Below, in pieces: positions 498 through 35,468 of a stretch of 64,000 bases of DNA (within the stretch, counting starts at the first letter, position 1; each line of letters begins with the position of its first letter). Under the pieces are notes generated by a model that was given only the letters and a program-made list of their open reading frames with translations, was not told the origin of the DNA and did no database searches. Origin of the DNA: Thamnaconus septentrionalis (lineage: Eukaryota > Chordata > Actinopteri > Tetraodontiformes > Monacanthidae); assembly GCA_009823395.1 (NCBI GenBank), contig CM020513.1, positions 1,915,501 through 1,979,500 of the forward strand, in the 5' to 3' direction. The translations under genes and the position numbers were made by a program.

Positions 498-3200
498 TTA
501 AAAAAGAGAGTGAAGACCTTTGTAAGTTATTAGCAAGATCTTAAATTCAATTCTAGGTCTAACTGGAAGCCAGTGTAAACATGCTAAAACTGGTGTAATG
601 TGCTGCCTCCTCCTAGTTCCAGTTAGTAGACGTGCAGCAGCATTTTGTGTCAATTGTAATATCCTTAGAGAAGATTTTGGGCATCCTGATAGTAAGGAAT
701 TACAGTAATCTAGTCTAGAAGTAAGAAACGCATGAATGATTTTTTTTTTTTTTTGCTTCTTTGAAAGACAAGAAATTTCTAATTTTAGCAATATTTCTTA
801 AATGGAAAAAAGCTGTCCTTGCTAAGTTCTGAATATGGGAGTTGAATGTCAAGTCCGGATCAAAAATGACTCAAGGTTTCTTACAGCGTCACTCGAGGCA
901 AAAGTGGTATTGTTTAAGCTAATGTGACTATTGGAAATTTTGTCTCTAAGCTCCCTTAAGCCCACAATAATAACTTCAGTTTTGCTGGTATTAAGCATCA
1001 AAACATTTTGTGTTATCCAAGTTTTGATGTCACTTAAGCAAGTTTCTAATTTAGCTAACTGCTGTGCTTCATCGGCTTTGAATGACAGATATAACTGTGT
1101 ATCATCCGCAAAACAGTGGAAACTGATGTTATGCCGTCTAATAATATCACCAAGAAGGTAACATGTGAATGTTAAAGAGGAGCGGTCCAAGAACAGACCC
1201 TTGAGGGACTCCATGTCTAACACTCTTACGTTCTGATGAGTGATTATGGACATACACAAATTGAAAGCGGTCAGACAAATAAGATCTAAACCAATTTAAG
1301 GCTTGATCTTTAATGCCAATAACATCCTCTAGTCTTCTAAGAAGAATGCTGTGGTCAACTGTATCAAATGTATCACTGAGATCTAGTAGAACGAAAACAG
1401 AAAGATCACTGTCAGATGCCATCAAGAGGTCATTACTCACCTTTAGCAATGCAGTCTCAGTGCTGTGATTATTCCTAAAACCTGACTGAAGCACCTCAAA
1501 TAGATTGTTGTCATGTACCGTAATTTCTGGACTATAAGCCGCACCAGCTAAATTTAGGGGGGAAAACAAATGTGTACATATGCAAGCCGCACCGGACTAT
1601 AAGCCGCAGGTGTTTCGTCAGGAAACGGTCCGCGGAGCGGAACGGTTCGGCGGCTGCGAGCCTGCGACTCTGGACTCGGACCGCGGATCCTGTTTACGGG
1701 GTCCCGCTTGTCACCTCGGTTAATTGGTATGGTATATCACTGTTCATCACTTCATCGCTTGAGCACTTCCTGCTAAAGCGCCCCCTGGCGGGTGAAGTAA
1801 AATCCACAGAAAAGCCGCACCTTTGCATAAACCGCATGGTTCAAAGCGTGGGAAAAAAGTAGCGGCTTATAGTCCGGAAAATACGGTTAATGGTCATTGA
1901 CCTGCTGACAAATATTCTCTCAAAAATATTAGACAGAAATGGAAGGTTTGAAATTGGCCTATAATTGGACAGAACACTTGCATCTAGATTTGGTTATTTA
2001 ATAAGGGGTTTAATTACCTTGAAGGATTGAGGCACAAAACCTGTGGATAATGACTCGTTCATTATTCTAAGTATGACACTATTAAGTAATGGTGATACCT
2101 CCTTTAAAAGTTTGGTTGGGATTGGGTCCAACAGGCTAGTGGTCGATTTTGCAGAGGAGATAAGAGAGTGAAGTTCAGAGAGTCCAATTTGCTGAAAACT
2201 CTCAAGATGAATACTAGCGTTGCTATGTTGTAGCTGTTCTTCTATAGGGCCAATGGATGGAGAGGAATGCTGGATCTCACTTCTAGTATTTTCTACTTTG
2301 TGCAGGAATAAAATTTCTGAGGTGATCACGAGACAGACCAATTGGAATACAGAGCTCAACACAATTGTGGCTTCTTCTCAGTTTAGCTATGGTACTGAAA
2401 AGAAATTTGTATTGGCATCAATAAGAGCAGAATAATAGGTAGTTCTACTCATACGCAGGGCCTTTTTGTAGGACCCATAGCTATCCTGCCAAGCTATATA
2501 GGATGCATATAACTCGATAGGGAGCCTCTCTTTCAATTTGGCTATGACGGTGTCTGAAATATTTCTACCTATTATAGATTTATCTTGGGGGCTGGAATCA
2601 GCCAGAATAAAACTAAAAGTGATAAAAAAAAAAAAAAGGTCAGATAAAAGGTCATTTTGGGGAAAAATGGTTATTTGCTTTACACTAAGACCATCGGTTA
2701 GAATGTGATCTAAAGTATGATTATGTGTATGAGTGGGCGCATTGACAACTTGGAGGAAAATTATGGAGTCCAAAATCGATTAAAATTGGAAATTAAGACT
2801 GTCACTCTGAACGTCAACATGAATATTGAAATCACCTATCACTATAATCTTGTCCTTAGTTAATGCCAAACTAGACAAAAATTCTGAAAATTCATCTAAA
2901 AAAAGAAGAATATGGACCAGGGGTTAATATTAACTAGCAGATTGGAATTGTAAATAGCTGCCACGCCACCTCCTCGACCCCTGTCGCGAGCTATATGAGT
3001 ATTAATGTGACTTGAGGGAGTGGCTTTGTTAAGACTAACATTCATCTTGGTGTAGCCATGTTTCTGTTAGACCAAAAAGATCAATATTCTGTTCACTAAT
3101 CAAATCATTAACTTGAACTGCTTTTGATTGTAATGACCTCATCCTATTTTTACAATCTATTCGAATTAAGTTACTGTAATCACTTGGAGCCTTCATAACA
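498..3200 (-). pseudogene. LINE A ORF2: endonuclease-reverse transcriptase, broken
   Basis: Fragments lie in order on the minus strand. Endonuclease pieces are at about 3000-2780, with GDFNIHVD-like and THTHNHTLDHILTDG motifs. The linker and first reverse transcriptase block are at 2770-1994, with LLDPIPTKLLKE and PQSFK. The palm core is at 1569-1147, with AFDTVDH-like DTFDTVDHSILL, NWFRSYLSDR and GVPQGSVLGPLLFN. The catalytic FADDTQLY is near 1110-1090. The C-terminal region is at 791-498, with SRLDYCNSLLSG and HWLPV. Frame changes and stops separate the pieces, and a 371-bp DNA transposon sits between the first block and the palm core. It cannot make a full ORF2 protein. Confidence 0.85.
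1517..1887. mobile_element. Short non-autonomous DNA transposon nested in LINE A
   Basis: The two ends are inverted copies of each other: accgtaatttctggactata at the left and, at the right, tatagtccggaaaatacggt. The following bases 'agccgc' are also mirrored, giving a terminal inverted repeat of about 26 bp with a few mismatches. The interior is GC-rich and non-coding, and repeats the 'ataagccgc' motif several times. The target duplication is at most 2-3 bases (TA-like), so I do not assign the superfamily. It interrupts the LINE reverse transcriptase reading frame. Confidence 0.75.
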
Positions 3201-3380
3201 GATCTAGGTAGTAATATAGATTTGCAGGTACTGGGGACAGAATACTAATAGATTATTAATAGATCACTTATCTATTGGATAAGTAATGCAGGATTTACTA
3301 ATGGCTGGGGACTGCAGTGAGGGAAGCCCAGAGTAGCGTGTAGGACTGCAACTCTGTTGCCTGGTCCCCACCCTGGAGCA

Positions 3381-3500
3381 TCAGTGAGTGGAAGCCAATA
3401 ATTTAACTATATTGCTAGACAAGAGGGCTGCACCATCCTGGGCGGGATGAATGCCATCCCTCCTAACAAGACCAGGCTTGCCCCAGAAAGGCGATCAGTT
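3381..3500 (-). pseudogene. LINE A ORF1 C-terminus: SGNH-esterase end
   Basis: On the minus strand this translates to FWGKPGLVRRDGIHPAQDGA followed by a leucine/serine-rich helix and a stop at 3381-3383. The D-G-I-H unit is block V of SGNH/GDSL hydrolases, where Asp and His complete the catalytic triad; both residues are kept here. Esterase-like ORF1 proteins are known in L2/CR1-type fish LINEs. The N-terminal part is missing because the insertion is 5'-truncated. The same sequence occurs in LINE B at 4143-4260, so the two elements are relatives. Confidence 0.7.
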
Positions 3501-3695
3501 CCGATGACCGTGGTGCTTGTAAATAAGGCAAATGCGCCATCTAGTGGGATGCAAGGCATTGCGGGACAAGTTCAAAGGATGCAGTCATAATTATATTATT
3601 TGTGCAATTCTGTCAATCTTCGACAGGCCGCATTAAGAAGACCAACGAGCCGGATGTGGCCCACGGACCGTAGTTTGCCCACCTCTGCTCTAGAG

Positions 3696-3830
3696 GGCCG
3701 TCATCTGCTTATGAGCAGTTGGGGTGAGAAGGAAATACAAAATAAAAATGTAGAGAGAGATAGAAATAGCCAGAGTGGCAGACAGGCCAGAGTGAGTTGC
3801 AGGGTTAAAGCTCAATAAACAGTAGATTCA
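3696..3830. repeat. Right part of the old teleost repeat split by the hAT
   Basis: It starts after the hAT target duplication and reads 'ggccgtcatctgcttatgag' then 'cagttggggtgag', which is the expected continuation of the repeat at 1-206. The end is not sharp and grades into AT-rich sequence by about 3830. No coding potential. Confidence 0.55.
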
Positions 3831-4142
3831 CATATATAAGAATAAATAATTAAAATATGTATATAAGTGGATGTTTTTGTATCACATACATCAAAACATT
3901 CTAGAATGTAAATAGGCCCAAATGTTGAGTGGTGGGGTGGTACAGCCGCGGTCCATGTAGGATGTGTTGGTCTGTCTTTGCTGTCCGTGTGGAATGCATT
4001 TGTTTATGTTTGGGAGGGCAAGAGTCCATAATGGCCCACGATCCGTTGTTAAATTCGGTCCTCGTCCTGATACTGGTGGCAAAGTTGAAGCGGTGGCACC
4101 AAGACTCCCAGGACTGCACTGCCCGGTCCCCACCCTGGAGCA

Positions 4143-4500
4143 TCAGTGAGTGGAAGCTAATAACTTAACTATATTGCTAGAGAAGAGGGTTGCACCATCC
4201 CAGGTGGGATGAATGCCACCCCTCTTAACAAGACCAGGCTTGCCCCAGAAAGGCTTCCAATTATCTACAAAGCCCACTGAGTTATTGGGACACCACCCTG
4301 ACAGCCAGCAGTGAAAAGATGACATGCGGCTAAACATCTCATCGCTGCTAATATTTGGGATGGGGCCAGAGAAAACTACTTCGTCTGACATGGTCCGAGC
4401 AAATGCGCACACGATGCTATATTTAATTTAGTAATCTCAGACAATTTTAGGCGTGCGTCATTGAAACCACAGTGGATTACAATTTGCCTAAATCTCCGTT
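4143..4500 (-). pseudogene. LINE B ORF1, C-terminal half of SGNH esterase
   Basis: The minus-strand translation contains VIHCGFNDARLK, which is SGNH block III (G-x-N-D), then FSGPIPNISSDEMFSRM and the block V region KRGGIHPTWDGA with a stop at 4143-4145. The block V aspartate that is present in LINE A (D-G-I-H) is glycine here (G-G-I-H), so the catalytic triad is broken. The N-terminal block I is on the far side of LINE C at 6336-6591. Confidence 0.75.
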
Positions 4501-4551
4501 TATCCTTCAAATCAAATCAAATCAAATCAAATTTTATTTGTGCAGCACCTT

Positions 4552-6330
4552 TCATACAAGAAAATGCAACCCAAGCTGCTTAACAACAATTAAAATAAAA
4601 TACGAATAAAGATTAAAAAAAAAAAAAAAAAAGAGCCAATAAAATCCACCAGCCTCCTCCCAAAACACATACAGGTTATCAATCGCATAGGGAGCCAATG
4701 CAGCGATTTTAATGTGATCCCGCCCCCTGGTCCTTGTCAGCACACGAGCGGCTGAGTTCTGGAGTACCTGCAGGTTAGAGATAGTCTTTTTCGGTAGACC
4801 AGAGAGCAGGGCATTGTAATAGTCTATTCAACAAGAAATAAAAGCATGCATCAGCACCTCTGTGTCTGCCTGGGAAAGAAACAGGCGGACTTTGGCTATA
4901 TGTTCTGAAGACGATAAAAACATGTCTTTGTGACATTTTTAATATACGCATTAAAACTAAGCTCAGAGTCAAAAATGACACCCAGGTACTTAACAGATTG
5001 TGTTGGTTTAAAATCGTGAAGTTTTGGTCAAAGTTTCTCTCTCTAGCCTTCAGGACCAATAACTAAAACCTCTGTTTTGTCCTGGTTGAGCTGTAGGAAG
5101 TTTTCTGCCACCCATGACTTAATATCTAATATACATTTCAAAAGGGTGACAATAGGCCCTGTGTCATCAGGAGACACAGCATTGTAAAGCTGTGTATCGT
5201 CAGCATAAGAGTGGAAGGTGACGCCGTGTCTCCTGATGACGTCCCCAAGGGGAAGCATGTAAAGATTAAAAAGTACTGGACCTAAAATTGACCCTTGGGG
5301 CACCCCACACTTAATGTTATGTTTTCCTGGAGGAGCATGCATCCAAACTTATGAAGAAATAGCTGTGAGATAAGAACAAAACCAGTTAAAAAAACAGCAC
5401 CAGAGAGGCCCACCAGGTTTCTGAATATGTTTAATAAAATGTGGTGATCTACTGTATCAAAGGCAGCGCTTGGATCCAGTAGCACCAGGACTGTGAGTTT
5501 ATTTGAGTCTGCATTACACCTGACATCATTTAAAATCTTTACAAGGGCTGTCTCTGTGCTGTGGTTCATCCTAAAACCAGACTGATATTTCTCTAAAATG
5601 TTGTTTGTACTTAAAAAATACTTTAATTGGTTAAAAACGATTTTTTTTTTCTAAAATCTTACTTTGCAAATTGGATAGGATCTGTAATTGTCATGAATGG
5701 TTGGGTCTAAATTGTTCTTCTTCAGAAGGTGCCTCACCACTGCCGTTTTAACGACAGCAGGGAAGACACCCGTCTGAAGAGAGCAATTTGCTACGCATAA
5801 AATCTGTTCCTCAAAGAATCCATAAAATGTCTTCAAACATGATGTGGGAATTGCATCTAAAAGGCAGGTTGTTGGGTTTACCTGGGAGAAAACTCGACCA
5901 AGTGTCCTCGCATCAACCAGGGGCAAAACTCTCCAGTGTTAAAATATACATTCTGATGCACTAAAAGACTGGACCTAGTGCCATCCATTTTAAATGGTAA
6001 AATGGTAAATGGACTGCACTTATATAGTGCTTTTCCAGTACCTTCACGGTACCCCAAGGCGCTTTACAAAGGCCTCTCATTCACTTATTCACACACACAT
6101 TCATACACCAATGGGTGGCTGCTGCCATGCAAGGTGCTGCCAAGCCCCATTGGGAGCAATTTAGGGTTAAGTGTCTTGCCCAAGGTACAATGACAGACTA
6201 GGAAGGAGCAGGATTTGAACCGTCAACCTTTCGGTCATTGGACAACCCAAGCCACAGTCAGTTTACTTCTGAAGTAGCCTGCAAAGTTCTCGCAGAGAGC
6301 ATCAGATGGCATCTCTGGGGATTTTTATAA
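4552..6330 (-). pseudogene. LINE C ORF2: reverse transcriptase, broken
   Basis: In minus-strand order: a pre-palm segment CENFAGYFRSKL at about 6300-6260; after the nested repeat, VDARTLGRVFSQV, LLDAIPTSCLKT and GVFPAVVKTAVV (5926-5651); AAFDTVDHHILL (about 5470-5430); GVPQGSILGPVLFNLYML (about 5310-5250); the catalytic YADDTQLY (about 5210-5185); LNQDKTEVLV (about 5080-5050); and a degenerate C-terminus to 4552. The pieces are in different frames with stops between them. There is no endonuclease. Confidence 0.8.
5980..6250. repeat. High-copy teleost repeat nested in LINE C
   Basis: It contains 'tggtaaatggactgcacttatatagtgctttt', 'ggcgctttacaaa', 'cactcacacattca'-like and 'gagcaggatttgaaccgtca' segments in the order I know from a very abundant fish interspersed repeat. 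It separates two parts of the LINE C reverse transcriptase reading. I do not assign a superfamily; a SINE or a non-autonomous DNA element are both possible. Confidence 0.55.
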
Positions 6331-6335
6331 AATTA

Positions 6336-6591
6336 TTATTAGTTATTAGTCCTTAGCCATTAACTTTAAATACCCTTCAATATCGCCTGCCCTGACCCCA
6401 GGGATGCACTTCACTGTGGCTGATGGCTGTCCTATCTTAACATGCCTCACTATGGATGAGCCAATTACCAGAGTGTTTATCTCAGCCGGCGTGCTGCTGA
6501 GCGGGGCAAACTTGTTAGAGACATGGACAGAGGGGGCCTGGTGCTGAGAGTAGTGGTGGTGTCCGATGGACTTTTTGGTGCTATGCTTCAT
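6336..6591 (-). pseudogene. LINE B ORF1, N-terminal half of SGNH esterase
   Basis: The minus-strand frame reads [20 protein letters not shown], where GSSIVRH is the SGNH block I with the nucleophile serine, then [22 protein letters not shown]. It stops at the LINE C junction. The next residues expected in the family continue at 4500 on the other side of LINE C. Confidence 0.7.
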
Positions 6592-6934
6592 TCAATAAGT
6601 GGATACAGATCTGGTGGCAGTAGCAAATATTGTTGCTTGGGATATTTGTGTTTTGATTTTGCTTGTTCATTTTTGGTTTTGTTTTGACCATACTATTTTA
6701 AGAATTTTAGTGAACATTTTCACCCACTATGAGTTGTAATTATTGTCATTTCTTGTCTGTTTTTATGTGGACCTCAGGACCAATATTCTTCACATGGTGA
6801 AAAATATCTGGGATCCTTCAATAAAAAATAAAATTCAATAAAACATAAACAAACAACTGCCAACACTCACACAATCACTGTGTCATAAAATGGAAAAGAA
6901 AAAGTCATTTCATACTTTCAGGTTTTCTTAATAT

Positions 6935-6940
6935 TTTATT
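6935..6940 (-). promoter_or_regulatory. Poly(A) signal of lectin copy A
   Basis: AATAAA on the minus strand, about 160 bp after the stop codon. It is mirrored by AATAAA at 17265-17270 in the other arm. Confidence 0.6.
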
Positions 6941-7100
6941 CCATATTTTTTGCTAAATAGTTCTTCTCTTAGGTATCATCTTAAACCCCAGCAAAAAAGT
7001 ATGAAAATACAAAAGCACATTCTTGCAGAAAATACAGAGACCCAGTGACTAAAATAAGGACACTGTCGCTGTGAGAGTGGCCAAACGTTCAGCGTGGACA

Positions 7101-8431
7101 TTAACAGGAAAAGGGGTCCTTGGAGCAGATGTAGCGAAGTTTCCAGGTGCACGGGTAGTTGCGCCATCCATCTGAAATGTGTGGAGGATGGAAACATTAA
7201 CAGCAAGCCATATTTTGTACGTTCAAACTTCACTTCAGAAATCCAGCTTCAAGGTGCATGAAAAGCAAATTGTCTAAATTCTGAAGTTAAATCAGCAGGT
7301 ACAGTGCAAGGTCGACTCACTTGTGCTTTGAAGGTACAAACAGGGGTTGGAGCTGGCGGTGCTCTGCGTGTGCCAGTTTGTGTAGTAGAACCCTTGATGG
7401 TCAATCCACAGCCACTGACCCTGAGACACAAAAGCAGCAGTGACAGGAAGCAGCTTAGCTGCAGGAAGTCCAGAAGCTGGTTTGGACCTGATGTGGACCT
7501 AATGCAGTGTTTCATGAGTTCAGACCTGCAGGTTGAAGCCTCCCAGCCAAAGTGAGCTCTGACCAGCTGTCAAAGCCATTTCCTGCAGGAAGCTGTAGAC
7601 ACTTTTGTTAGGCACAGAAGCCAGGCTGCCTCCAAGACTGTTACAGTGCTCCTGTTGGACACAACAGGTCTTCAGAAGGACTGACCAGGAACCAAATGCA
7701 TAGTGAGTGCACATAGTGTGACGTGGCAGTACCTCCGCCTTTAACCAGGTTGTGGCAGTACTGACATACTTGTAGCATCGAAGACTGTAGCCAAACCATC
7801 CAGTTGGACAGTAGTCAATAAGAGCTGCAGATAAAAATAGGGGTTCACGTTTACTGTAACACTCAGTTACTTCTCTTATGACACCACCCTCATCATCTGC
7901 AAAGTCTGATGGACTACGGGGAACAGTTAGCAGGGCCTCTCAAATACATCCATGAATTGAGAGTGATAACCACCTTTGGGAGCATCTTCCTCCTTAACCT
8001 CTGCCACCGTTCTGGACTCCTTCTCTGAAAAGTCAGAACTTTTTCAGCTGACATTCACAAGTTGAAGACAAGCTTTGTCAATGATGGTCACTTTTGGCCT
8101 TGTTGCCATATTAATGTTCTTCTAACACACAAACCAGATTCAGCAGCTAGCTCTTCATTCACAGCTTCCAACACCGGCTCTGTGGACGAAACACATTGAT
8201 GTTGGTGTCGGTAGATAAGAGTGCATGTGCAAGTGAGAAAGAGAGATACAGACCTGGAGCCGCTTCATTGACTTCAGCTGGAGCTGCAGACACAAACACA
8301 ACACAAGTCAGTTACTCCTCTGTCTCTTCCTGCACTTTGTCTCAGGTTGTCATTCTTGTATGTGGGTCAGAGTCAGAGGCACCTGCATATGCAGCACAGA
8401 GCAGAAAGCAAAGGACCAGGACAGTCTTCAT
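7101..8431 (-). CDS. Secreted C-type lectin, copy A (ladderlectin / type II antifreeze-like)
   Basis: Eight coding exons give a 187-residue protein: 8431-8383, 8283-8254, 8179-8135, 8024-7974, 7824-7733, 7651-7526, 7420-7321 and 7171-7101 (stop TAA). Every intron has GT..AG ends and all phases join. Exon 1 encodes a signal peptide (MKTVLVLCFLLCAAYA). Three tiny exons encode an acidic, Ala/Glu/Val-rich propeptide. Exons 5-8 encode one long-form C-type lectin domain beginning CPTGW at residue 64, with cysteines at 64, 75, 92, 158, 172 and 180 and an extra C-terminal Cys 187. The LWLGG core motif is present, but there is no EPN or QPD sugar-specificity motif: the site reads TNWHTQSTASSN. The calcium-site WND is replaced by WRN. 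This exon plan is that of the fish ladderlectin / type II antifreeze group. The ligand is unknown; secretion and a role in surface defence or ice binding are family-based guesses. Copy B lies in the other arm, transcribed away from it. Confidence 0.9.
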
Positions 8432-8616
8432 GGTAATCAACAGCAATCTGGATTCTCCCTGAGGACAGAAAACTGTTGCTGTTGAATGAAGAGAGGGCAG
8501 AGTCACCAGAAGGTCAGGGCCAGCGAGGCGTCTTACCTGTTCAAGTATCTGTGAGCAAAGGGTGATGTTCAGGTGTGGCCTGAGCGATGAAGTGATGACA
8601 GAGGGCTGCGCTCCTC

Positions 8617-8624
8617 TTTTTATA
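8617..8624 (-). promoter_or_regulatory. TATA box of lectin copy A
   Basis: TATAAAAA on the minus strand. About 30 bp downstream the conserved leader begins; it ends at a donor site (ttgaacag|gtaaga) near 8535, and a short intron then leads to the exon holding the start codon at 8431. The same arrangement is seen in copy B. Confidence 0.65.
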
Positions 8625-9897
8625 CACGGCTGAACCACAGCGAGTCCTGCTGGTGGGCGTGTCCTTGTTGGTGTGCACGTCAGCATCAAGTGCAGCAAGG
8701 TGTGAAGGTGAAGGTGAAGGTGACCTCTAATGTGGTTCATGACATGAACACAGGAGCAGTTGGCACACAAGCCTGTCTTTTTTGCTTTTGTGCTTTGAAA
8801 AGTTCATGTAAATGGGTTCAAAACTTGTTGAATGATACTGTAGGATATGTACACACAGAAGCAGCAGAATAACAACATTTTCTGCAGCTTTAACAACACC
8901 CCCAACACACATTGCAGTTTCCTGAAATCTTCCAGATGGGTGGAAAAGTCTATGCTACTTCAGGGCCATCGCAGCAACGGCATGCTGAACGTGACATTTT
9001 AAAGAATTTGCAACCACTGGTTCGAGATGTAAAAGGGCTGGGGAGATAAACTGTAAGAGACAGTATTGTAGACCTTTGGGTCAGATAGAACACTTTAAAC
9101 ATCTACACCCCAGTAAGATGCTGTCAATTACATTTGACAGTTGATGTGACCCTTTTGGGAGAAACCCACAACATCCATAGTCAGTTGGTATAGTTGGTCA
9201 TGACTAATCCCAAGGTTTTCCTCCAGGGAGTTCTGGGTCTGTGGTGGGACCCTACTCCCAGTTACACTTGCCTGGAGAACCTCTCATATAGGGTGTCCTG
9301 CATTCAGGAGGTTCAACCCCTTCAGTTGGACCCTTGAAGAGCAGAGAGTTTTTGGGGCTACGCTGAGCAGCTGAGTGGACGTGATTTACTTGAGTGCACT
9401 TTAAAAGAAAAATTTGTGAGAGGTTATACAACTCTTTGCATATTGCGTAACATGCAATTGTATTTCTTACGGCATTTCCCCGCATCTGACTAATTTGAGG
9501 TTAATATACAACAGAATGAGTGCACTTTGTACGCTCAATAAAAATTTCACTCACATCATAAGGAAAAAGATCCACAAATAGTTTATGAAGGGCAAGAAAA
9601 AAATGATATCTTTATTGTATCTATCTATTGTTGGTTTGTGTGAGAAGAAAATGTCTTCCCACCAAGACAAATAGCCAAACAAAAGCTGCAAGACACCAAT
9701 TTCCTGTGACCATTTGGTCCGTGGTTCATATTAATAGCTAAAGTAATGCTTTGTCAATAGCTCCAGACCAGCTGCCACAGTGCCTTTTTCTGTCCTTTCC
9801 AAGAAAAACCTAAATCAAATGCAATTTCATTACTATAAACACCTTATGGTCATGGAAGAAATGGTGTTAGTGAAAGAAACCAATTGGAGACCTGTAT

Positions 9898-10188
9898 TAA
9901 TTTATCCACCCATCCATTTTCAATAACTGCTTGTCCTGCACTCAGGTTCACAAGGGGCTTTTGGAGTCATTGGGCAACAACAGGCAGGGTACACCCTGGA
10001 CAAGTGCCCAGTTTATTGCAAGGCCACCTAGAAAGACAAAACAACCAAATACAGTAGCACTCACTGTAACAGCCAATTTGGAGTTCCCAATTCACCTCAC
10101 ATGCATGTTTTTGGACCATGGGAGAAACCCGGAGAACCTCTAAAGAACCTAGAGAAACAGGGAGAACATGCAAACGCCACACTGAGGC
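9898..10188 (-). mobile_element. SINE body, headless copy at the inner end of the left arm
   Basis: On the minus strand this is the same SINE-like repeat as 13975-14350: 'gtgtggcgtttgcatgttct', 'tgcatgtgaggtgaattggg', 'cttgtccagggtgtaccctg' and a tail 'aatggatgggtgg'. The tRNA-like head is absent because the arm ends inside the element. Confidence 0.65.
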
Positions 10189-11100
10189 CTAAATAAAAGA
10201 AAAGTCCGTCATTTAGTTTTATATGTGTGTGTGTGAGAGAGAGCGCAAGCATCTCTATGTTTAACTCAGCCCACCTGAACGTACAGAGTATATAGTCATG
10301 ATGTCACGCCCAATCACGTTGTAATGTGCGCACAGCCTCCTGGGACAGAGACAGATGCGAGTTCACATCGACTCCACAAATCCACAGAGTTGTGTGTTTG
10401 TTTCCTGCACTGTGGTGAGTTTATTTTCTGTTTCGAAGCAACTTAAAGCGAGTTGCCGTGGTGTTAACTTAGCTGCTGATTGCTCGTGTACTGTCACGTG
10501 TATATGAGCCATTAGTAATTAGGCTAGTAGTTAACATTGTGAGTTAGCCAAAGACAAAATGTTTAGCTACTGTGATATAACGCGTTAATGTGTGTGGGCG
10601 TACATGCGCCACGTGTGTGTGCAATGTGTGTGTGAAAAAATGTCCTGTCAAAGAGAATGTGACCTGTTTCTTAGGTCAAGTTTTTGTGGAGTTTGAGTTG
10701 GTGCTGATTGGTGTGGGAGCGAGAACACCATCGAGGCCAGTGGTGAGAGGAGACCAGCAGTGGAAGGCCGCGAGGCTTCGTGGACACCACCTGGAGGAGT
10801 GGATCCACGGATTTTGAAGTCGAGTTGAGGACAACGGAATTTACCTTCGCTGTCGGCGGTGTGGTAGGAGAGTGAACAAACAAGAAAAATTAAAGGGCTC
10901 CAATGAAACTAAAACAAATTGCTTGTTAATGTGACAGTGGCGATCCTGTCACTATGCCTCCAATTGATCATGCGCCCTGGCTACTTGGCCAAGGGGATAT
11001 CCTTTTGGCCGAATTCTTAAGCACACATGACTATTACCCGGGAGTCTGGGGTTTGAAGCCCGCCGGGCCCTCTGTACCTTGTCACATTAAGTTACAAGTA
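10189..11100. other. Spacer sequence upstream of the gypsy coding region, partly unassigned
   Basis: No gene is supported. A (TG)/(AG) run lies near 10220-10250. The stretch 10870-10940 ends in 'gttaatgtgaca' followed by 'gtggcgatcctgtcac'. A terminal ..CA followed by TGGCGA.. looks like the end of a 5' LTR followed by a primer-binding site, but I cannot align it with the 3' LTR candidate by eye. A near-palindrome, ggccaaggggatatcctttt + ggcc, is at about 10988-11011. Confidence 0.35.
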
Positions 11101-11300
11101 GAGCAGGGCAAGAAACTTGCATTTACGTGATGGGGAAGGATCTTTCGGATCAATCTTAAGATCTTTCATCTTTCCGGCTGCTACGGAGGCAATCCCTGAG
11201 CCGAAGTTTGACGTTAATGTCATAATGGAGAAATTTGACTTTGCTGTGACTGAACAGGAGGCATCTGTCATTGATGAGCCAGGCATAGACACTGACTGGG

Positions 11301-11639
11301 ATGTTGAGTTTAGTTGAGGGCAGCCTGGTGGATTTTAAGATCGATACTGGAGCTGACACTACGGTTGTGACGGAGGCGACGTTCAGCGGGCTGCAGCGGA
11401 GGCCCAGGCTGACCCATTCCAGGCCAATGCTATACAGCCTAGGTGGAAAGGTGAGGTGTGTCGACAAATTCCTCGCCAACACCATTTACAAGGGGCAAAA
11501 ATATAGGCACTGGATTACTGTCAAAATATGTCAGCAACCTACTGGGAAAACAGTGGCGAACAGTATGGGACTTGTCACAAGAGTAAATGAGATTAACAAT
11601 GACTCAACAGGAGATGTGTTTGGAGAGATCGGGCTGTAA
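11301..11639 (+). pseudogene. Gypsy aspartic protease region
   Basis: The frame contains VDFKIDTGADTTVVTEATF; the D-T-G-A unit is the catalytic motif of retroelement aspartic proteases. It continues to a stop at 11639, just before the reverse transcriptase start. As an isolated fragment it is not a host gene. Confidence 0.75.
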
Positions 11640-11690
11640 AACTGTGAGCCGGCGAAGATAGAACTGTCTGATGACGCCGGATGCTACAGT

Positions 11691-12041
11691 GTGAATACAC
11701 CATGGATAGTCCCTTTCCCCCTCTTCCCAAAGGTGGAAAAAGAGTTGAAGCACATGCTCAATATTGGCATTATAGAGGAGGTCACTACGCCAACAGACTG
11801 GTTCTGGCAAATTCCACTGGACCCCAGCAGCCAGAAACTCACCACGTTCATCACTCCCATGGGCAGGATCTGTTTTAAACGCCTGCCATTCAGGATCACC
11901 TCGGCACCTGAGATTTTTCAACAGCTGATGAGCAACCTGCTCCAGGGCCTGGAGGGACAGTGGTGGTGATGGACGACATTCTTGTCTTCGGGGCCAACAA
12001 AGAAGAGCACGACCGCCGCCTGGACGTGGTGCTGTAAACAA
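11691..12041 (+). pseudogene. Gypsy reverse transcriptase with internal deletion and frameshift
   Basis: The frame begins with PWIVPFPLFPKVEKELKHML and IIEEVTTPTDW, then jumps directly to FWQIPLDPSSQKLTTFITP. The usual stretch between these motifs (about 60 residues, with the first catalytic Asp region) is missing. FKRLPFRITSAPEIFQQLM follows. The catalytic MDDILVFG at about 11969-11992 is in another frame after a shift near 11965. Confidence 0.75.
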
Positions 12042-12075
12042 TCAAAACATCGGGCCTTAAACTCAACAGGGCCAA

Positions 12076-12500
12076 GTGTCACTTCAGGAAAACAACTGCA
12101 GTTCTTCGGGCACCAAACTGGACAACAGCAAAGTGGAAAGCATCGCTAAAATGCCAAGCCCCACAAATGTGGAGGAACTTTGTCAGGTGCTGGGTTTGAT
12201 AAACTTCGTGGGCAAATTCCTGCCAGGTCTGTCCACTGTGCTGCACCCGGTGAAAAACCTTCTCAAAAGGGACAGTGCGTGGGTCTGGGGTGAACCGCTG
12301 CTTATGACCGCACCAGCACTCTACTACGACGCAGGCCGGCCTACTGTGGTTAGTGCAGACGCCAGCAGCTAAGGTCTGGGTGCTGTACTGTTGCAGGACC
12401 ACGACGGGGAGCTGAGGCCTGTCGCTTTCTGTTCCAGAACTCTAACGGACACTGAAAAGAGATACTCGCAGATTGAGAAAGAGTTCTTGGCGAGTGTGTG
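12076..12500 (+). pseudogene. Gypsy RNase H region, one in-frame stop
   Basis: The connection motif VLGLINFVGKFLPGLS is followed by TVVSADASS, a TAA stop at about 12370, then [20 protein letters not shown] and [13 protein letters not shown]. These are the usual RNase H motifs of Ty3/gypsy polyproteins, with the active-site Asp in SADAS. Confidence 0.75.
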
Positions 12501-12625
12501 GGCGCTTTGCTCGATACATCCAAGGGATGGGCTGTGTCCGTCTGCAAACAGACCAAAAGCCTTTAGTGCCATTAATCAACAGATACGACCTCGACAAGGC
12601 TCCACTGAGGTGTCAGAGATAGCTT

Positions 12626-13503
12626 GTGCACCTCATGCAATTCAACGTCACTGCCGAGCACATTCCAGGCAAACAGCCCACAGTCGTGGCTAGCAAGCCC
12701 ATCAAATCACCTAAGCTTGAAGAAATCTGCAGGGCCACACAGTGCAACGCAGAACTTCAAAAAGTGGCTACCTTCATCAGAAAAGGGTGGCCTCAAAGAA
12801 TGTCAGAGTTTTCACCTCTGCGAGCATTCCATGCAGCCAGAGCTCACCTTTCCGAATTAGACGGCCTAGTGCTGTACCAAGATCGCATTGTCATCCCTGC
12901 AGCACTCAGATCTGACGTCCTAAACCAGCTGCACGAAGGCCACCAGGGATTAACAAAGTGTCGCCAGCGAGCAAGGTCAACAGTCTGGTGGCCCAGCATA
13001 GGCGCCCAACTCACCAAGAAAGTTAAGTTGTGCGACTTCTGTGCAGTGCATAAACCAACACAGAAATGTGAGCCACTGCTCACAACTCCCCTTCCCGGTG
13101 GACCCTGGCAAAGGATCGCAGCTGACCTGTGCGAATTAGAGGGTAAGAGTTACCTCATTGTGGTGAATAATGTTTTCAGAGACATTGAAATTGCTCCCCT
13201 CACTGGTATCACAAGCAGGAATGTCATGGCAAGCTGAAAAACATGTTCGCGAGATGGAGAATCCCAATAAAACTGGTCAGTGATAATGCAACACAGTTTT
13301 CTTCAGCGGAGTTCCAGGACTTCAAACAGAGGTATGGTTTCTTACACTACCCACAGGCAAATGGGGCTGGGGAGAGAGCAGTTCAGACAGCCGAACATAT
13401 CCTCAAACAACCTGACCCCTGCTTAGTCTTGATGAGACCAATTGCAGCCACTGGTGCAAGCCAGTTTATTTTGAAGTTTAGTACTGGGCAATGTTTACGC
13501 TGA
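12626..13503 (+). pseudogene. Gypsy integrase, zinc-binding and core domains, broken
   Basis: The zinc-binding part reads HEGHQGLTKCRQRAR, WWPSIGAQL and CDFC (H-H-C-C type). The core continues with WQRIAADLCELEGKSYLIVV. A stop at 13235-13237 and missing sequence precede the second half, which reads [16 protein letters not shown] and [13 protein letters not shown]. The first core catalytic Asp is D-L (IAADLC) and the second is the D-N-A-T-Q motif. Confidence 0.8.
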
Positions 13504-13729
13504 TGTGATATGCCTGTCTGTGTTTCTTTATTTTAGGGGGCAGATGTTGTGCGATTGTACTTATTGGCCTTTTTGAGTTGCCGTAGTTGAGAGTTAAGTG
13601 GAAGACAACTGGGGCCGAGAGTGCATGTGACATTATATGAGAGCCGTGAATAGCATTTCTATACTGAGTGTGCATTCCAAATTAAAAAGCACTTGAACAT
13701 TAAAAGTGTCTTCCCTTCGTAACATGACA

Positions 13730-13974
13730 ATGTGCAGATTCAATTTTTTAGTAATACCCAATAAAATAAATTTTAAATACTTATAATTATAAAGTTATAA
13801 TTCATTAAAATACTCATAATTTTTGTTATTGCACAAGACAGTTTGTTGTCCTGGCTTTTTAACAACTTGGCTGTAATAAACAGCATTGCTTTATACTTAA
13901 CACATATGCATTTACATGATGAAATGTTACCATGTTTACATACATTGACTTTAACTGTATTTAAGTACATTAGT
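13730..13974. other. AT-rich spacer remainder
   Basis: The stretch between the gypsy 3' end and the SINE head is AT-rich with no gene or clear element. Confidence 0.4.
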
Positions 13975-14350
13975 GATACAGTGGTTAGCACTGTCGCCTT
14001 CAAGCGAGAAGGTTATGGGCTTGATCCCGGGCCTGGGGCCTCAGTGTGGCGTTTGCATGTTCTCCCTGTTTCTCTAGGTTCGTTAGAGGTTCTCCGGGTT
14101 TCTCCCATGGTCCAAAAACATGCATGTGAGGTGAATTGGGAACTCCAAATTGGCCGTGACAGTGAGTGCTACTGTATTTGGTTGTTTTGTCTTTCTAGGT
14201 GTCCTTGCAATAAACTGGGGACTTGTCCAGGGTGTACCCTGCCTGTTGTTGCCCAATGACAACTGGGATAGACTCCAAAAGCCCCTTGTGAACCTGAGTG
14301 CAGGACAAGCAGTTATAGAAAATGGATGGGTGGATAAAATAATGCAGGTC
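13975..14350 (+). mobile_element. tRNA-related SINE, full-length, crossing the inner end of the right arm
   Basis: The head has an A-box-like GTGGTTAGCACTG and a B-box-like GGGCTTGATCCC, spaced as in RNA polymerase III promoters. The body then matches the headless copy in the left arm from about 14036 on. The tail reads 'aaaatggatgggtggataaa'. The duplication breakpoint thus falls inside this SINE. Confidence 0.7.
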
Positions 14351-15612
14351 TCCAATTGGTTTCTTTCACTAACACCATTTCTTCCATGACCATGAGGTGT
14401 TTATAGTAATGAAATTGCATTTGATTTAGTTTTTTCTTGGAGAGGACAGAAAAAGGCACTGTGGCAGCTGGTCTGGAGCTATTGACAAAGCATTACTTTA
14501 GCTATTAATATGAACCACGGACCAAATGGTCACAGGAAATTGGTGTCTTGCAGCTTTTGTTTGGCTATTTGTCTTGGTGGGAAGACTTTTTCTTCTCACA
14601 CAAACCAACAATAGATAGATACAATAAAGATATCATTTTTTTCTTGCCCTTCATAAACTATTTGTGGATCTTTTTCCTTATGATGTGAGTGAAATTTTTA
14701 TTGAGCGTACAAAGTGCACTCATTTTGTTGTATATTAACCTCAAATTAGTCAGATGCGGGGAAATGCCGTAAGAAATACAATTGCATGTTACGCAATATG
14801 CAAAGAGTTGTATAACCTCTCACAAATTTTTCTTTTAAAGTGCACTCATGTAAATCACGTCCACTCAGCTGCTCAGCGTAGCCCCAAAAACTCTCTGCTC
14901 TTCAAGGGTCCAACTGAAGGGGTTGAACCTTCTGAATGCAGGACACCCTATATGAGAGGTTCTCCAGGCAAGTGTAACTGGGAGTAGGGTCCCACCACAG
15001 ACCCAGAACTCCCTGGAGGAAAACCTTGGGATTAGTCATGACCAACTATACCAACTGACTATGGATGTTGTGGGTTTCTCCCAAAAGGGTCACATCAACT
15101 GTCAAATGTAATCGACAGCATCTTACTGGGGTGTAGATGTTTAAAGTGTTCTATCTGACCCAAATGTCTACAATACTGTCTCTTACAGTTTATCTCCCCA
15201 GCCCTTTTACATCTCGAACCAGTGGTTGCAAATTCTTTAAAATGTCACGTTCAGCATGCCGTTGCTGCGATGGCCCTGAAGTAGCATAGACTTTTCCACC
15301 CATCTGGAAGATTTCAGGAAACTGCAATGTGTGTTGGGGGTGTTGTTAAAGCTGCAGAAAATGTTGTTATTCTGCTGCTTCTGTGTGCACATATCCTACA
15401 GTATCATTCAACAAGTTTTGAACCCATTAACATGAACTTTTCAAAGCACAAAAGCAAAAAAGACAGGCTTGTGTGCCAACTGCTCCTGTGTTCATGTCAT
15501 GAACCACATTAGAGGTCACCTTCACCTTCACCTTTACACCTTGCTGCACTTGATGCTGACGTGCACACCAACAAGGACACGCCCACCAGCAGGACTCGCT
15601 GTGGTTCAGCCG

Positions 15613-15620
15613 TATAAAAG
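15613..15620 (+). promoter_or_regulatory. TATA box of lectin copy B
   Basis: TATAAAAG. The leader that follows ends at a donor (ttgaacag|gtaaga) after 15698, and the next exon begins at 15777, giving a 5' untranslated exon and a 78-bp intron before the start codon. Confidence 0.7.
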
Positions 15621-15803
15621 AGGGCGCAGCCCTCTGTCATCACTTCATCGCTCAGGCCACACCTGAACATCACCCTTTGCTCACAGATACTTGAACAGGT
15701 AAGACGCCTCGCTGGCCCTGACCTCCTGGTGACTCTGCCCTCTCTTCATTCAACAGCAACAGTTTTCTGTCCTCAGGGAGAATCCAGATTGCTGTTGATT
15801 ACC

Positions 15804-17110
15804 ATGAAGACTGTCCTGGTCCTTTGCTTTCTGCTCTGTGCTGCATATGCAGGTGCCTCTGACTCTTCACACCCTCATACAAGAATGACAACCTGAGACA
15901 AAGTGCAGGAAGAGACAGAGGAGTAACTGACTTGTGTTATGTTTGTGTCTGCAGCTCCAGCTGAAGTCAATGAAGCGGCTCCAGGTCTGTATCTCTCTTT
16001 CTCACTTGCACATGCACTCTTATCTACCGACACCAACATCAATGTGTTTCGTCCACAGAGCCGGTGTTGGAAGCTGTGAATGAAGAGCTCGCTGCTGAAT
16101 CTGGTTTGTGTGTTAGAAGAACATTAATATGGCAACAAGGCCAAAAGTGACCATCATTGACAAAGCTTGTCTTCAACTTGTGAATGTCAGCTGAAAAAGT
16201 TCTGACTTTTCAGGGAAGGAGTCCAGAACGGTGGCAGAGGTTAAGGAGGAAGATGCTCCCAAAGGTGGTTATCACTCTCAATTCATGGATGTATTTGAGA
16301 GACCCTGCTAACTGTTCCCCGCAGTCCATCACACTTTGCAGATGATGAGGGTGGTGTAAACGTGAACCCCTTGTTTTATCTGCAGCTCTCACTGACTACT
16401 GTCCAACTGGATGGTTCAGCCATAGTCTTCGATGCTACAAGTATGTCAGAACTGCTGCGACCTGGTTCAAAGCCAAGGTACTGCCGCTGTCACACTATGT
16501 GCACTCACTATGCATTTGGTTCCTGGTCAGTCCTTCTGAAGACCTGTTGTGTCCAACAGGAGCACTGTAACGATCTTGGAGGCAGCCTGGCTTCTGTGCC
16601 TAACCCAAGAGTCTACAGCTTCCTGCAGCAGATTGCTGGGACAGCCGGTCAGAGCTCACTGTGGCTGGGAGGCTTCTACCTGCAGGTCTGAACTCATGAA
16701 ACACTGCATTAGGTCCACATCAGGTCCAAACCAGCTTCTGGACTTCCTGCAGCTAAGCTGCTTCCTGTCACTGCTGCTTTTGTGTCTCAGGGTCAGTGGC
16801 TGTGGACTGACCGTGAAGGGTTCTACTACACAAACTGGCACATGCAGAGCACCGCCAGCTCCAACTCCTGTTTGTACCTTCAAAGCACAAGTGAGTCGAC
16901 CTTGCACTGTACTTGCTGATTTAACTTCAGAATTGAGAGAATTTGCTTTTCATGCACCGTGAAGCTGGATTTCTGAAGTGAAGTGTGAACGTACAAAATA
17001 TGGCTTGCTGTTAATGTTTCCATCCTCCACACATTTCAGATGGATGGCGCAACTACCCGTGCACCTGGAAACTTCGCTACATCTGTGCCAGGAACTCCTT
17101 TTCTTGTTAA
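15804..17110 (+). CDS. Secreted C-type lectin, copy B (ladderlectin / type II antifreeze-like)
   Basis: Coding exons are 15804-15852, 15955-15984, 16059-16103, 16214-16264, 16386-16477, 16560-16685, 16791-16890 and 17040-17110 (TAA): 564 bp, 187 residues, all introns GT..AG with consistent phases. Residues 1-16 form the signal peptide, 17-58 an acidic propeptide from three small exons, and 64-187 one C-type lectin domain with the six long-form cysteines plus a terminal Cys 187. The specificity region reads YTNWHMQSTASSN instead of EPN/QPD, and GWRNYPC replaces the usual WND..C, so classic calcium-dependent sugar binding is doubtful. Compared with copy A, the signal exon and exon 2 are identical and exons 3-4 differ at one base each, whereas exons 5-8 differ at about 39 of 389 bases, mostly replacement changes. 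The function is probably that of a soluble recognition or ice-binding lectin; the ligand is not deducible. Confidence 0.92.
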
Positions 17111-17264
17111 TGTCCACGCTGAACGTTTGGCCATTCTCACAGCGACAGTGTCCTTATTTCACTGATTCTGTGTATTTTTTGCAAGAATGCGCTTTCATAT
17201 TTTACCACTGCTGCTGGGGTTTGAGATGATGACTAAGAGAATAACTATTTAGCAAAAAATATGG

Positions 17265-17270
17265 AATAAA
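17265..17270 (+). promoter_or_regulatory. Poly(A) signal of lectin copy B
   Basis: AATAAA 155 bp after the stop codon; mirror of the signal at 6935-6940. Confidence 0.6.
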
Positions 17271-17611
17271 ATATTAAGAAAACCTGAAAGTATGAAATGA
17301 CTTTTTCTTTTCCATTTTGTGACACAGTGATTGTGTGAGGGATGGCAGTTGTTTGTTTATGTTTTATTGAATTTTATGATTTATTGAAGGATCCCAGTTA
17401 TTTTTCACCACGTGAAGAATATTGGTCCTGAGGTCCACATGAAAAAAGACAAGATATGACAATAATTACAAATCATAGTGGGTAAAAATTTTCACTAAAA
17501 TTCTTAAAATAGTAAGGCCAAAACAAAACCAAAAAATGAACAAGCAACCACAAAACACAAATATCCCAAGCAACAATATTTGTTACGGCCACCAGATCTG
17601 TATCCACTTAT

Positions 17612-20768: not shown

Positions 20769-22650
20769 AAAGCTGCAAGCAGCGTTTGCGGGACTGAGCC
20801 GCCGTGGCCGACGCGCGACCCCGATGACCCACGATGACCCCGACCCCTGCCGACGCCAGCAATTGACCCCCGTCCTCTGCCGGCTCGGTGACATCTGCTG
20901 AAAGAAGTCTATGGAAATGATGCAGATTTTTCAAAGTTTTTTTTTTTTTTTTTTGGAAGATGTTGTCAAATCTAAATCATAGGCCTTAATGAGACAAACA
21001 CGTGGGTGTTTGAATGACGTGTGTATGACTTCCCTAAAGGAAACTGCAGCCATTTGTGTCTTGAAAAAGCTGGACAAGAGGTCTAATCATCATAAGCCTG
21101 TATATGCAAATGAGGCATATTTTTTACCTGCAGGCTTTTTTGAAGTAGCTGTCAAATGTAAATTATAGGCCTTGATGAGACAAACACGTGGATGTTTGAA
21201 TGACGTCTGTAGGACTTTTGTAAAGGAAACTGCAGCCATTTACAGTATATGCCTGTTGAATAAGAGGGAGAGAAAGAGACAGGCGTGAGGGGCTCCCAAC
21301 CTGCAGGAGCAGAGATAGCGCCGCTAGCTCCGTTAGCTCCGCTTTTGGAAGCATGGACATCTAAGCTCAGAACTCCGCCATTTCGGCGTCTACAGGAAAG
21401 ATATTGGTATCTTCTTTTAGCTAAGAGCTTCAGCTATCTAACTATGTATAGGTATCCGGGGTGTGAGTAACGTTGTAGGCGTGGTGGTGAAAATACGAAC
21501 TTCGTTTTTTTTTCGTTCAGGCGATCTCAAACAACTCGAAATATTTAACTTCCTGTTTGTCGGATGCCAAAATTAGAGCGTACGCGACGTAGAGCTTGAC
21601 GAGACGAACGCGTGGATATGTGTTGCACCAATGTTCGACGTTCCTAGAGGGCGCTAGGTGCATTTTAGCTTTCTGGTGTGTTTTTGGATTTTGGACAGTT
21701 TAGACATGCATCGACTTTAAAGGGTTCTAAAATGAAAACGGTGCAACGTATCCGGACCATTATTTTTACGTTGACCTTCTGAGAGTGTAGTCTGTGCAAT
21801 ACAAAAGGTTTGAAACTTGCAGCATTGACGGTTAGTTGAGTACTGTCACTGTGGATGATTTCAAAGAAGTGGAAATAGCTAACTTCCGGTTTGTCAGGGG
21901 TCAAAGGTCATCATTTCAGAATGTAGGTCTGTATCCAAGGAACGCGTGGGTTTTCGTCCCATGTCGTTTCGACCTTCCTAGAGGGCGCTAGAGGCATTTT
22001 AATTTTTTGAGGGGGATTTTGAGCGATTTTTGGTCAATTTTCAATGTGCGTCGACTTTGGAGGGGCGTTGCGAAAACGGTTTGAAAATTGAACGTTTTTT
22101 TTGATGATTCCGTGGATTGAAGGTACAGTCTATGTCATACTGAATTTTCAAGCCCGTCGGACTTGCGCTTTCTGAGCCTTGTGTTTTCACTCTTTTCCAA
22201 AGAAGGGACGATAGCTCACTTCCGGTTTGTGTGGGGTCAAAGGTCAGCATATCAGCAAATAGGTCTGGATTGCCCGCACGCGTGGGTGTTGGCCGCATGT
22301 CTCTACGACCTTCCTAGAAGAAGTTAGTTTTTAACGTGAAATCAAAAAAGTGGAAATAACTCACTTCCTGTATGTCGGACGATATAAGTTAGAGCGTACG
22401 AAATGTCGGGCTTGAAGAGACGAACGCATGGAATTTTTCCCCATATTTTTTCGACCTTCCTAGTGGAAACTAGTTCCATTTCAATTTTTTGGACGCCTCT
22501 AGGGGCGCTAGAGAGTGGAATTTTGCCTTTTCTCTTAATTTTATCAAATTTTCGCCAGTTTCTACCTATGTGGCGGATTTAATTCGCATATTTTATATGG
22601 TAAGGGGTCAAAATGGGGAAAGAAGCAGCGGGAATTTGTAAATAATAATA
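20769..22650 (+). repeat. Array unit 0 (most diverged, 1.88 kb)
   Basis: The head is 'aagctgcaagcagcg' followed by gggactgagcc and a GC-rich stretch. After this come two copies of an 'agacaaacacgtgg..ctgcagccattt' block (20990, 21175), then several modules of about 300-330 bp. Each module has 'gagacgaacgcgtgg' and 'cgaccttcctagagggcgct' words (near 21640, 21975, 22310, 22455). No coding potential: short open frames differ between modules and do not persist. I recognise this as a family that is common in teleosts, but I cannot name it. Confidence 0.6.
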
Positions 22651-25600: not shown

Positions 25601-26241
25601 GTTGGACTTGCGCTTTCTGAGCCTTATGATTTTAATGTGAAAACCAAACAAGTGGGAATAACTCACTCCCTGTTTGTCGGGGACAAAGGTTAGAGGTGCA
25701 AAATGCCGGGCTTGAAGAGACGAACGCGTGGGTGTTTTCCCCATCTTTTTGGACCTTCCTAGTGGACGCTAGGGGCATTTGTAATTTGTGGTCAATTGTA
25801 GTTGGGCGCCTCTTGGGGGCGCACTGAAAACAGTTGGAAAAATCCCTTTTTTTTTGATGATTCTTTGTAATGAAGGTCCAGTCTATGTCATACTGAATTT
25901 TCAAGCCCGTCGGACTTGCGCTTTCTGAGCCTTATGCTTTTAACGTGAAAACGAAAAGTGGGAATAATTCACTCCCTGTTTTTGGGCGATATAGGTTAGA
26001 GCGTACGAAATGTCGGTCTTGAAGAGACTGACGCGTGGGTGTTTCCCCATCTTTTTCGACCTTCCTAGTGGAAGCTAGGGCCATTTGTAGTTTTTGGACA
26101 ATTGTAGTTGGATGCCTCTAGGGGCGCTAGAAGTGGAATTTTGCCTTTTTGTCTTCATTTTCTTTCATTGTGTACCAGTTTCTACCTCCGTGCCGAATTT
26201 GGTGAGTTTTGGAGCATGTTTTGTAAATAATAATAATAAGA
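22651..26241 (+). repeat. Copy 1 of a 3.59-kb tandem duplication
   Basis: It begins 'actagccctgcaagcagg' after an AAT run. It contains one complete unit (22651-23924), a second unit starting at 23925, and an embedded foreign block (24483-25251) after which unit sequence resumes at an earlier point ('catcttttagctagg'). It ends in 'ttttgtaaataataataata'. Copy 2 starts at 26242 with the same landmarks in the same order. Confidence 0.85.
24483..25251. mobile_element. Foreign block in copy 1 with a Tc1-type end
   Basis: The block is unlike the array. It includes 'cagttgtggtcagaagttta' + catacact near 24982-25010, which I recognise as a Tc1/mariner-type inverted-repeat end. A separate segment from 'cgcccggttcacactggacg' (25157) to 'gttcacaccagagct' (25235) looks like a very short inverted-repeat element. 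The same block is present in copy 2, so it predates the tandem duplication. Confidence 0.55.
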
Positions 26242-35453: not shown

Positions 35454-35468
35454 AGCCTGAAACGCAAG

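Follow-up and report, generated by a model that had tools for sequence, protein, structure and literature searches.

Lectin-domain exons more diverged than their neighbouring introns in duplicated ladderlectin-like genes of Thamnaconus septentrionalis: a possible footprint of intron conversion

In the L/M opsins of gibbons, exons were reported to be more diverged than introns at both site classes, with the replacement divergence (dN) not above the silent divergence (dS), and the authors explained this by conversion of the introns and selection against conversion of the exons (PMC3213168). A divergence peak between converting duplicates is treated as a mark of selection in a review (PMC3924837), and the process named ASSET was reported to exchange exon segments for others of 12.5–50% identity (PMC2474615). 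Here, the exon/intron contrast was analysed in two C-type lectin-like genes, A and B, which lie on the arms of an inverted duplication in T. septentrionalis. The analysed stretch, C13:1915501-1979500 (64,000 nucleotides, hereafter the window), belongs to a 474-Mb assembly of 132 contigs. The contrast itself is already known from opsins; the fish lectin family is the addition, and the contrast recurs once within the same genome.

The two arms (Table 1) were aligned by self-BLAST with 95.35% identity over 3613 columns, and 112 mismatches and several indels, among them ones of 28 and 13 bases, were scattered along them. Both genes have eight exons and a spliced open frame of 187 codons, and all seven introns were GT-AG in both arms when checked by eye. 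In the product, one C-type lectin-like domain (CTLD) follows a signal-like leader and an acidic pro-segment; the latter two were assigned by eye from the gene A translation. On comparing the arms base by base, exons 5–8 aligned without gaps and differed by 5–15% (pooled, 38/389), while introns 5–7 differed at only 6/335 bases (P=3.2e-6). The original prediction had named equal intron and exon divergence as the observation that would count against it, and this equality was not found. Introns 5 and 6 together showed 1 difference in 186 aligned bases and intron 7 showed 5/149. Coding exons 1 and 2 were identical and exons 3 and 4 differed at one base each (2/175 for the four), with 8/404 in introns 1–4. 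The values for exons 1 to 4, the identity of the 105-bp intron 6 and the counts for exons 5, 7 and 8 (Table 1) were as predicted; the count for exon 6 was corrected from 14/126 to 13/126, and the "about 2 bases" of intron 5 proved to be one base and a 1-base gap.

The same prediction had held that only the lectin domain has changed and that the change ends at the splice sites, and neither statement stood. The 3' flank differed at 37/500 bases (7.4%), which was not distinguishable from exons 5–8 (P=0.22), and intron 4 differed at 5/121 bases and carries the 28-base indel; intron 7 is not free of change either. Moreover, the block of differences in exon 5 continues into both adjoining introns, by 14 bases in intron 4 and by 9 in intron 5. 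The distal 5' flank was far less diverged than the 3' flank (20/1551 vs 37/500, P=6e-11). When the pattern of differences was slid along the gene, its match with the exons had P=0.005, and P=0.04 when only exon 5 to exon 8 was considered. A two-state hidden Markov model (HMM) separated divergence classes of 1.3% and 10.3% (log-likelihood -482.2 vs -514.6 for one state). Its low tracts over introns 5 and 6 spanned 77 and 126 aligned bases with zero differences, and low tracts were also placed over a portion of exon 7, the greater part of intron 7 and the beginning of exon 8. A "high" tract at the TATA-box region (A 8630-8606, B 15609-15629) was rejected as an alignment effect, the true difference being small deletions: about 4 bases of arm A are absent from arm B there, as read by eye. 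The 5 mismatches there, the 3.0% computed for the stretch and the 5'-flank polarisation were accordingly disregarded. A difference in expression from these deletions is possible.

The contrast was also present at silent sites. By the Nei-Gojobori method, exons 5–8 of A and B carried 26 replacement and 12 silent changes, not the roughly 30 and 9 first counted, with dN 0.091, dS 0.167 and dN/dS 0.54. By exon, the replacement and silent changes were 7:7 in exon 5 (dN/dS 0.21; silent 7/18.8 sites, dS 0.51), 10:3 in exon 6 (1.02), 5:0 in exon 7 (ratio undefined) and 4:2 in exon 8 (0.47). Silent sites of exons 5–8 were more diverged than introns 5–7 (12/80 vs 6/335, P=8.7e-6), and those of exons 5–6 more than introns 5–6 (10/48 vs 1/186, P=5e-7). 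As silent divergence is raised too, selection acting on individual amino-acid replacements does not suffice as an explanation, and positive selection as the only cause was rejected on these silent changes. Judged from the sequences, entire exon blocks look older than the introns between them.

The genome DNA search identified three tandem relatives, C1a, C1b and C1c, on contig C1 at 22.653-22.678 Mb, unlinked to the pair in the window and, unlike A and B, in direct orientation. C1b, which looks like a pseudogene, lacks the stretch from inside exon 6 to inside exon 8; it retains exon 5 with intron 5 and a portion of exon 6, and it is 97.7% alike to C1c over 946 bases. Between C1a and C1c, the differences were 13/92 in exon 5, 2/73 in intron 5, 9/126 in exon 6, 0/73 in intron 6, 8/103 in exon 7 and 21/83 in intron 7. 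Exons 5–6 were therefore more diverged than introns 5–6 in this pair as well (22/218 vs 2/146, P=8e-4). Between the clusters, introns 5–6 differed at 35–37 of 145–146 bases (24–25%) and exons 5–6 at 59–71 of 218 (27–33%); taken singly, introns 5 and 6 gave 22–26% and exons 5–7 gave 24–40%. Thus, these introns are free to change and are near identical only within a cluster, which argues against slow, constrained introns. The C1 3' untranslated region count was left unused, as the two clusters can hardly be aligned in their 3' flanks.

As a further comparison, sites discordant within a pair were set against sites at which the two copies share a base not found in either gene of the other cluster. 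For A and B, the discordant and fixed counts were 32:66 in exons 5–7 and 0:35 in introns 5–6 (P=1.5e-5), and third codon positions alone gave 14:27 (P=5.5e-5 against the same introns). The unlinked pair C1a and C1c showed the same, with 30:63 in exons 5–7 vs 1:35 in introns 5–6 (P=1.7e-4) and 11:26 at third codon positions (P=0.003). Exon by exon, the C1 counts were 13:19 in exon 5, 1:16 in intron 5, 9:23 in exon 6 and 0:19 in intron 6, and downstream 8:21 in exon 7, 21:21 in intron 7 and 11:10 in exon 8. No contrast was found between exons 1–4 and introns 1, 3 and 4 in either pair (A-B 2:43 vs 5:93, C1a-C1c 10:44 vs 19:89, both P=1.0). With intron 7 added, the A-B contrast became stronger (introns 1:60, P=4e-7). 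In both pairs, introns 6 and 5 were spanned by the two longest runs of shared bases in the exon 5–exon 7 stretch.

The explanation that we favour, with slightly better than even confidence, is that gene conversion between copies evens out the introns while selection removes conversions that reach the lectin-domain exons. From the patterns above, we infer that conversion is the cause, in which direction it acted, and that selection forms the fence. The inverted arms, 3.8 kb apart, would pair and repair each other, and neutral sequence (the 5' flank, introns 2, 3, 5 and 6 and most of intron 7) would be repeatedly reset to near identity. Exons 5–8 would retain an older divergence if A and B have different jobs and if individuals whose lectin domain has been converted are eliminated, and the surviving conversion tracts would then be the two short, difference-free islands over introns 5 and 6, fenced by protected exons. 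The excess divergence of the 3' flank over the 5' flank places what appears to be an older background beside the low-divergence stretches. As the C1 sequence on both sides of introns 5–6 also looks older, young intron islands fit better than imported exons. Since the contrast is missing from the exons of the leader and pro-segment, the fence appears to be set by the lectin domain and not by splicing. Gene conversion, which had been offered as one explanation in the original prediction, remains the best one, although it probably evens out introns rather than imports exons.

Several observations weigh against this explanation. Once all of exons 5–8 and introns 5–7 were counted, the exon/intron contrast between C1a and C1c was no longer significant (63/458 vs 23/229, P=0.18), and adding intron 7 to the discordance test removed their contrast (30:63 vs 22:56, P=0.62). 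Between C1a and C1b, the retained exon sequence was not significantly more diverged than intron 5 (18/152 vs 5/73, P=0.35), and between C1b and C1c the contrast was reversed (exons 1/152 vs intron 5 3/73, P=0.10). When changes at most 3 bases apart were merged, the P values of the discordance test rose to 0.006 (A-B) and 0.047 (C1a-C1c). A Sawyer-type run test over three spans was weak or marginal (A-B P 0.10, 0.02 and 0.18; C1a-C1c 0.05, 0.04 and 0.06). Between the clusters, silent sites of exons 5–6 were 2.1–3.5 times more diverged than aligned intron bases, and part of the contrast may thus be a general exon/intron difference or saturation. Finally, all results come from one genome.

Among the alternatives, the import of exons survives best, though we consider it unlikely. 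Here, the duplication would be young (about 1.3%), and short conversions from a third paralogue, by now lost or else unsampled, or from a divergent allele would have replaced the lectin exons of one or both arms. The 5' flank and introns 5–6 indeed fall in one low divergence class of about 1.3%, the changes cluster in blocks, and the silent divergence of exon 5 exceeds the 7.4% of the 3' flank. However, the 3' flank and exon 8 would need importing as well, and the C1 stretches flanking introns 5–6 look older than those introns. The genome-wide protein search gave 30 matches (90 of 90 candidates scored), and the DNA search gave 45 (40 of 43 candidates scored), of which 36 lay in the dispersed repeat at 17346-17611 and 9 in lectin genes including A and B; among the scored matches of both searches, the close kin were the A/B pair and the C1 genes only, and no third-paralogue donor was found. 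None was found within 50 kb upstream or 20 kb downstream of the window or in the C1 cluster either. The search of the same genome for paralogues, which had been proposed with the original prediction, thus yielded the C1 genes, but their exons 5–8 are 24–40% diverged and therefore too distant to donate blocks that differ by 5–15%. Between C1a and C1b, decayed fragments (about C1:22656678-22657171, and from 22660719) were 73–85% similar in pieces of more than 60 bases. In addition, the polarisation of 24 replacement differences against 24 outgroup proteins gave 13 that were A-like and 11 that were B-like. As derived residues occur in both arms, neither arm simply took in a foreign block.

A partial third copy of the inner end of the arms was located just upstream of the window at C13:1914774-1915504; it ends at window position 4 and is oriented like arm B. 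It shares the spacer end with B (11.7% different) and not with A, and no lectin exons were found in it. It differs from A by 7.6% and from B by 6.8%, while A and B differ there by 2.1%. These values are compatible with an old family in which A and B were homogenised later, and also with an A-B duplication of later date.

A neutral mosaic, in which random inter-arm tracts happened to fall over introns 5 and 6 and not over the exons, with no selection, is more doubtful still. The low tracts that extend over parts of exon 7, intron 7 and the beginning of exon 8, the P of only 0.04 for the sliding test within exon 5 to exon 8, and a C1 intron 7 as diverged as the exons are what such chance placement would give. 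However, in the unlinked C1 pair, introns 5 and 6 are covered in a similar way, and exons 1–4 show no contrast in either pair.

Diversifying selection or a locally raised mutation rate in the lectin exons after duplication, acting without conversion, is very improbable. It could draw on exon 7, in which all five changes are replacements, on the dN/dS of 1.02 in exon 6, and on within-pair dN/dS values for exons 5–7 (A-B 0.56, C1a-C1c 0.68) that exceed all four between-cluster values (0.30–0.51). Against it, silent sites are raised too and dN/dS is 0.21 in exon 5, and a lasting exon mutation bias predicts exons far more diverged than introns between the clusters, where the raw counts were similar. 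The strong diversifying selection first proposed was thus not borne out: dN/dS was 0.54 for exons 5–8 pooled, below the value of 1 that marks positive diversifying selection, and 0.68 for exons 5–7 of C1a and C1c. Repair templated by RNA or cDNA was considered since it would stop at splice sites; it was rejected on the spread of the exon 5 block into both adjoining introns in A-B and on C1a-C1c differences close to both ends of exon 5. Near-identical inverted arms are hard to assemble, yet an assembly artefact from collapsed or chimeric haplotypes is hardly credible given the mismatches and indels across the arms and the like pattern at a second locus with copies in direct orientation.

Table 1. 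Positions of the duplicated arms, the lectin genes and their surroundings in the window
Feature	Position	Strand	Remarks
Arm A of inverted duplication	6595..10189	-	Self-BLAST (10189-6595) and base alignment; lectin gene A on -
Arm B of inverted duplication	14037..17611	+	Self-BLAST and base alignment; lectin gene B on +
Gene A coding exons 1–4	7974..8431 (8431-8383, 8283-8254, 8179-8135, 8024-7974)	-	Leader and pro-segment; 2/175 vs gene B
Gene A exon 5	7733..7824	-	14/92 vs gene B
Gene A intron 5	7652..7732	-	1/81 and one gap vs gene B
Gene A exon 6	7526..7651	-	13/126 vs gene B
Gene A intron 6	7421..7525	-	0/105, identical to gene B
Gene A exon 7	7321..7420	-	5/100 vs gene B, all replacement
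Gene A exon 8 with stop	7101..7171	-	6/71 vs gene B
Gene B coding exons 1–4	15804..16264 (15804-15852, 15955-15984, 16059-16103, 16214-16264)	+	Base alignment
Gene B exon 5	16386..16477	+	Lectin_C Pfam match spans residues 82-181 of spliced protein B
Gene B intron 5, putative homogenised island	16478..16559	+	HMM low tract B 16492-16568, 0/77
Gene B exon 6	16560..16685	+	Base alignment
Gene B intron 6, putative homogenised island	16686..16790	+	HMM low tract B 16679-16804, 0/126
Gene B exon 7	16791..16890	+	Base alignment
Gene B exon 8 with stop	17040..17110	+	Base alignment
3' flank of arm B	17111..17611	.	37/500 vs arm A (A side 7100-6595); about 17346-17611 dispersed repeat
Distal 5' flank of arm B	14037..15600	.	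20/1551 vs arm A (A side 10189-8639)
Spacer between arms	10190..14036	.	Decayed Ty3/gypsy-like retroelement; broken open frames; type recognised by eye

The membership of A and B in a protein family was also determined. Proteins A and B scored 62.9 and 64.8 bits against Pfam Lectin_C (cut-off 22.6), and 29 protein relatives, all with Lectin_C, were 38–60% identical to them. Teleost names were attached to 27 of the 29, and 17 were labelled ladderlectin or ladderlectin-like in the database, 2 being unnamed. Most relatives share the leader, the pro-segment and the C-terminal Cys, the last being invariant in the 22 of 29 that could be aligned there. By homology, by the order of leader, pro-segment and one CTLD, and by the C-terminal Cys, A and B are classified from their sequences as ladderlectin-like teleost lectins. 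In the protein tree, the A/B pair formed its own branch (support 100/99) and was 61–62% identical to C1c over the compared part of the domain. The lectin domain of C1c was 97.1% identical, over its compared part, to a protein of Nelusetta ayraudi, a member of the Monacanthidae, and C1a fell outside C1c and Nelusetta with weak support (89/3).

Calcium-dependent sugar binding by carbohydrate-recognition domains involves the motifs EPN or QPD in the long loop, together with WND. In the motif check, EPN and QPD were absent from the loop of A, B and all 29 relatives. A and B read WRN at the expected WND, 24 of the 29 relatives read W-x-N, and 5 gave no match to the pattern. Thus, "lectin" here names the fold. 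The CTLD of A and B has seven Cys, an odd number; ladderlectins form a disulfide-linked ladder of oligomers, with which the odd count is compatible only.

In the lectin domain, 23 of the 129 residues differ between A and B, whose net charges are about +2 and +6, respectively. A predicted model of one relative (P0001) had a mean predicted local distance difference test (pLDDT) score of 70, falling below 50 outside the domain, and matched CTLD structures including type II antifreeze proteins. By residue number, coordinates not being used, the differences did not cluster in the classical long loop; 8 of the 23 mapped to the two helices in the model of P0001 and 2 to the stretch preceding the loop cysteine. 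In the snaclecs of snakes, alpha and beta chains are partner subunits. By analogy, A and B may be obligate partner subunits of one hetero-oligomeric lectin, with the 23 differing residues and unlike charges as a matched interface, although we regard this as improbable. If it were so, conversion that makes the twins alike would destroy the complex, and the contrast would mark the parts that must differ.

As for the surroundings of the genes, the spacer matched sequence within C8:269008-271059 at 79–83%. Dispersed repeats with many copies in the genome lie at both arm ends (17346-17611 and 13979-14335) and may have mediated the duplication. Adjoining arm A, fragments of a reverse-transcriptase frame of the long interspersed nuclear element (LINE) type were recognised by eye at 500-6590 on the minus strand. 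Elsewhere in the window, a large tandem or nested array of direct repeats occupies 22026-31532; it includes a 3.6-kb repeat (97.6%) and numerous matches some 300 bases long (about 80–96%). Exon-like open frames at 35454-38474 on the plus strand resemble a glycosyltransferase (xylosyltransferase-like by eye), and dinucleotide repeat tracts of the CA/TG type, in opposite orientations, occur at 43990-44057, 55976-56029 and 56757-56836.

Known systems resemble this locus to different degrees. With type II antifreeze proteins, A and B share the fold, as seen in matches to 6jk4, 2afp, 2zib and 2py2 (E 8.7e-14 to 1.7e-11), but multi-domain receptors, lymphocyte antigen 75 among them, ranked higher, identity was low (26–31% for the modelled relative) and ice binding had no support. 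Like the snake three-finger toxins in which ASSET was described, the genes encode a secreted cysteine-rich family with highly similar introns and differing exons. Unlike in ASSET (PMC2474615), exons 5–8 of A and B remain free of gaps at 5–15% difference, and no switched segments were found. Within open-licence PubMed Central, no literature that pairs "ladderlectin" with "gene conversion" was found.

The closest likeness is to the primate L/M opsins (PMC3213168, PMC3924837). In both systems, functional exons exceed introns in divergence between paralogues at silent and replacement sites, dN is not above dS, and peripheral exons are not spared. This signature is present in A-B, and in C1a-C1c for introns 5–6 but not with intron 7. 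The systems differ in that a secreted lectin-like protein takes the place of a photopigment, the islands are about 80–130 bases long, one pair is inverted and one direct, and any functional difference between A and B is a prediction. Such genes call for caution, because duplications dated by introns 5–6 alone would seem too recent, and a test based only on dN/dS would overlook the signal. Should conversion be confirmed by orthologous introns, the functional difference of duplicate lectins could be located from the protected exons without an assay. A fish lectin family, with two unlinked clusters available for comparison in one genome, would be added to the gene pairs, primate opsins among them, whose exon/intron contrast flags the parts that must stay different.

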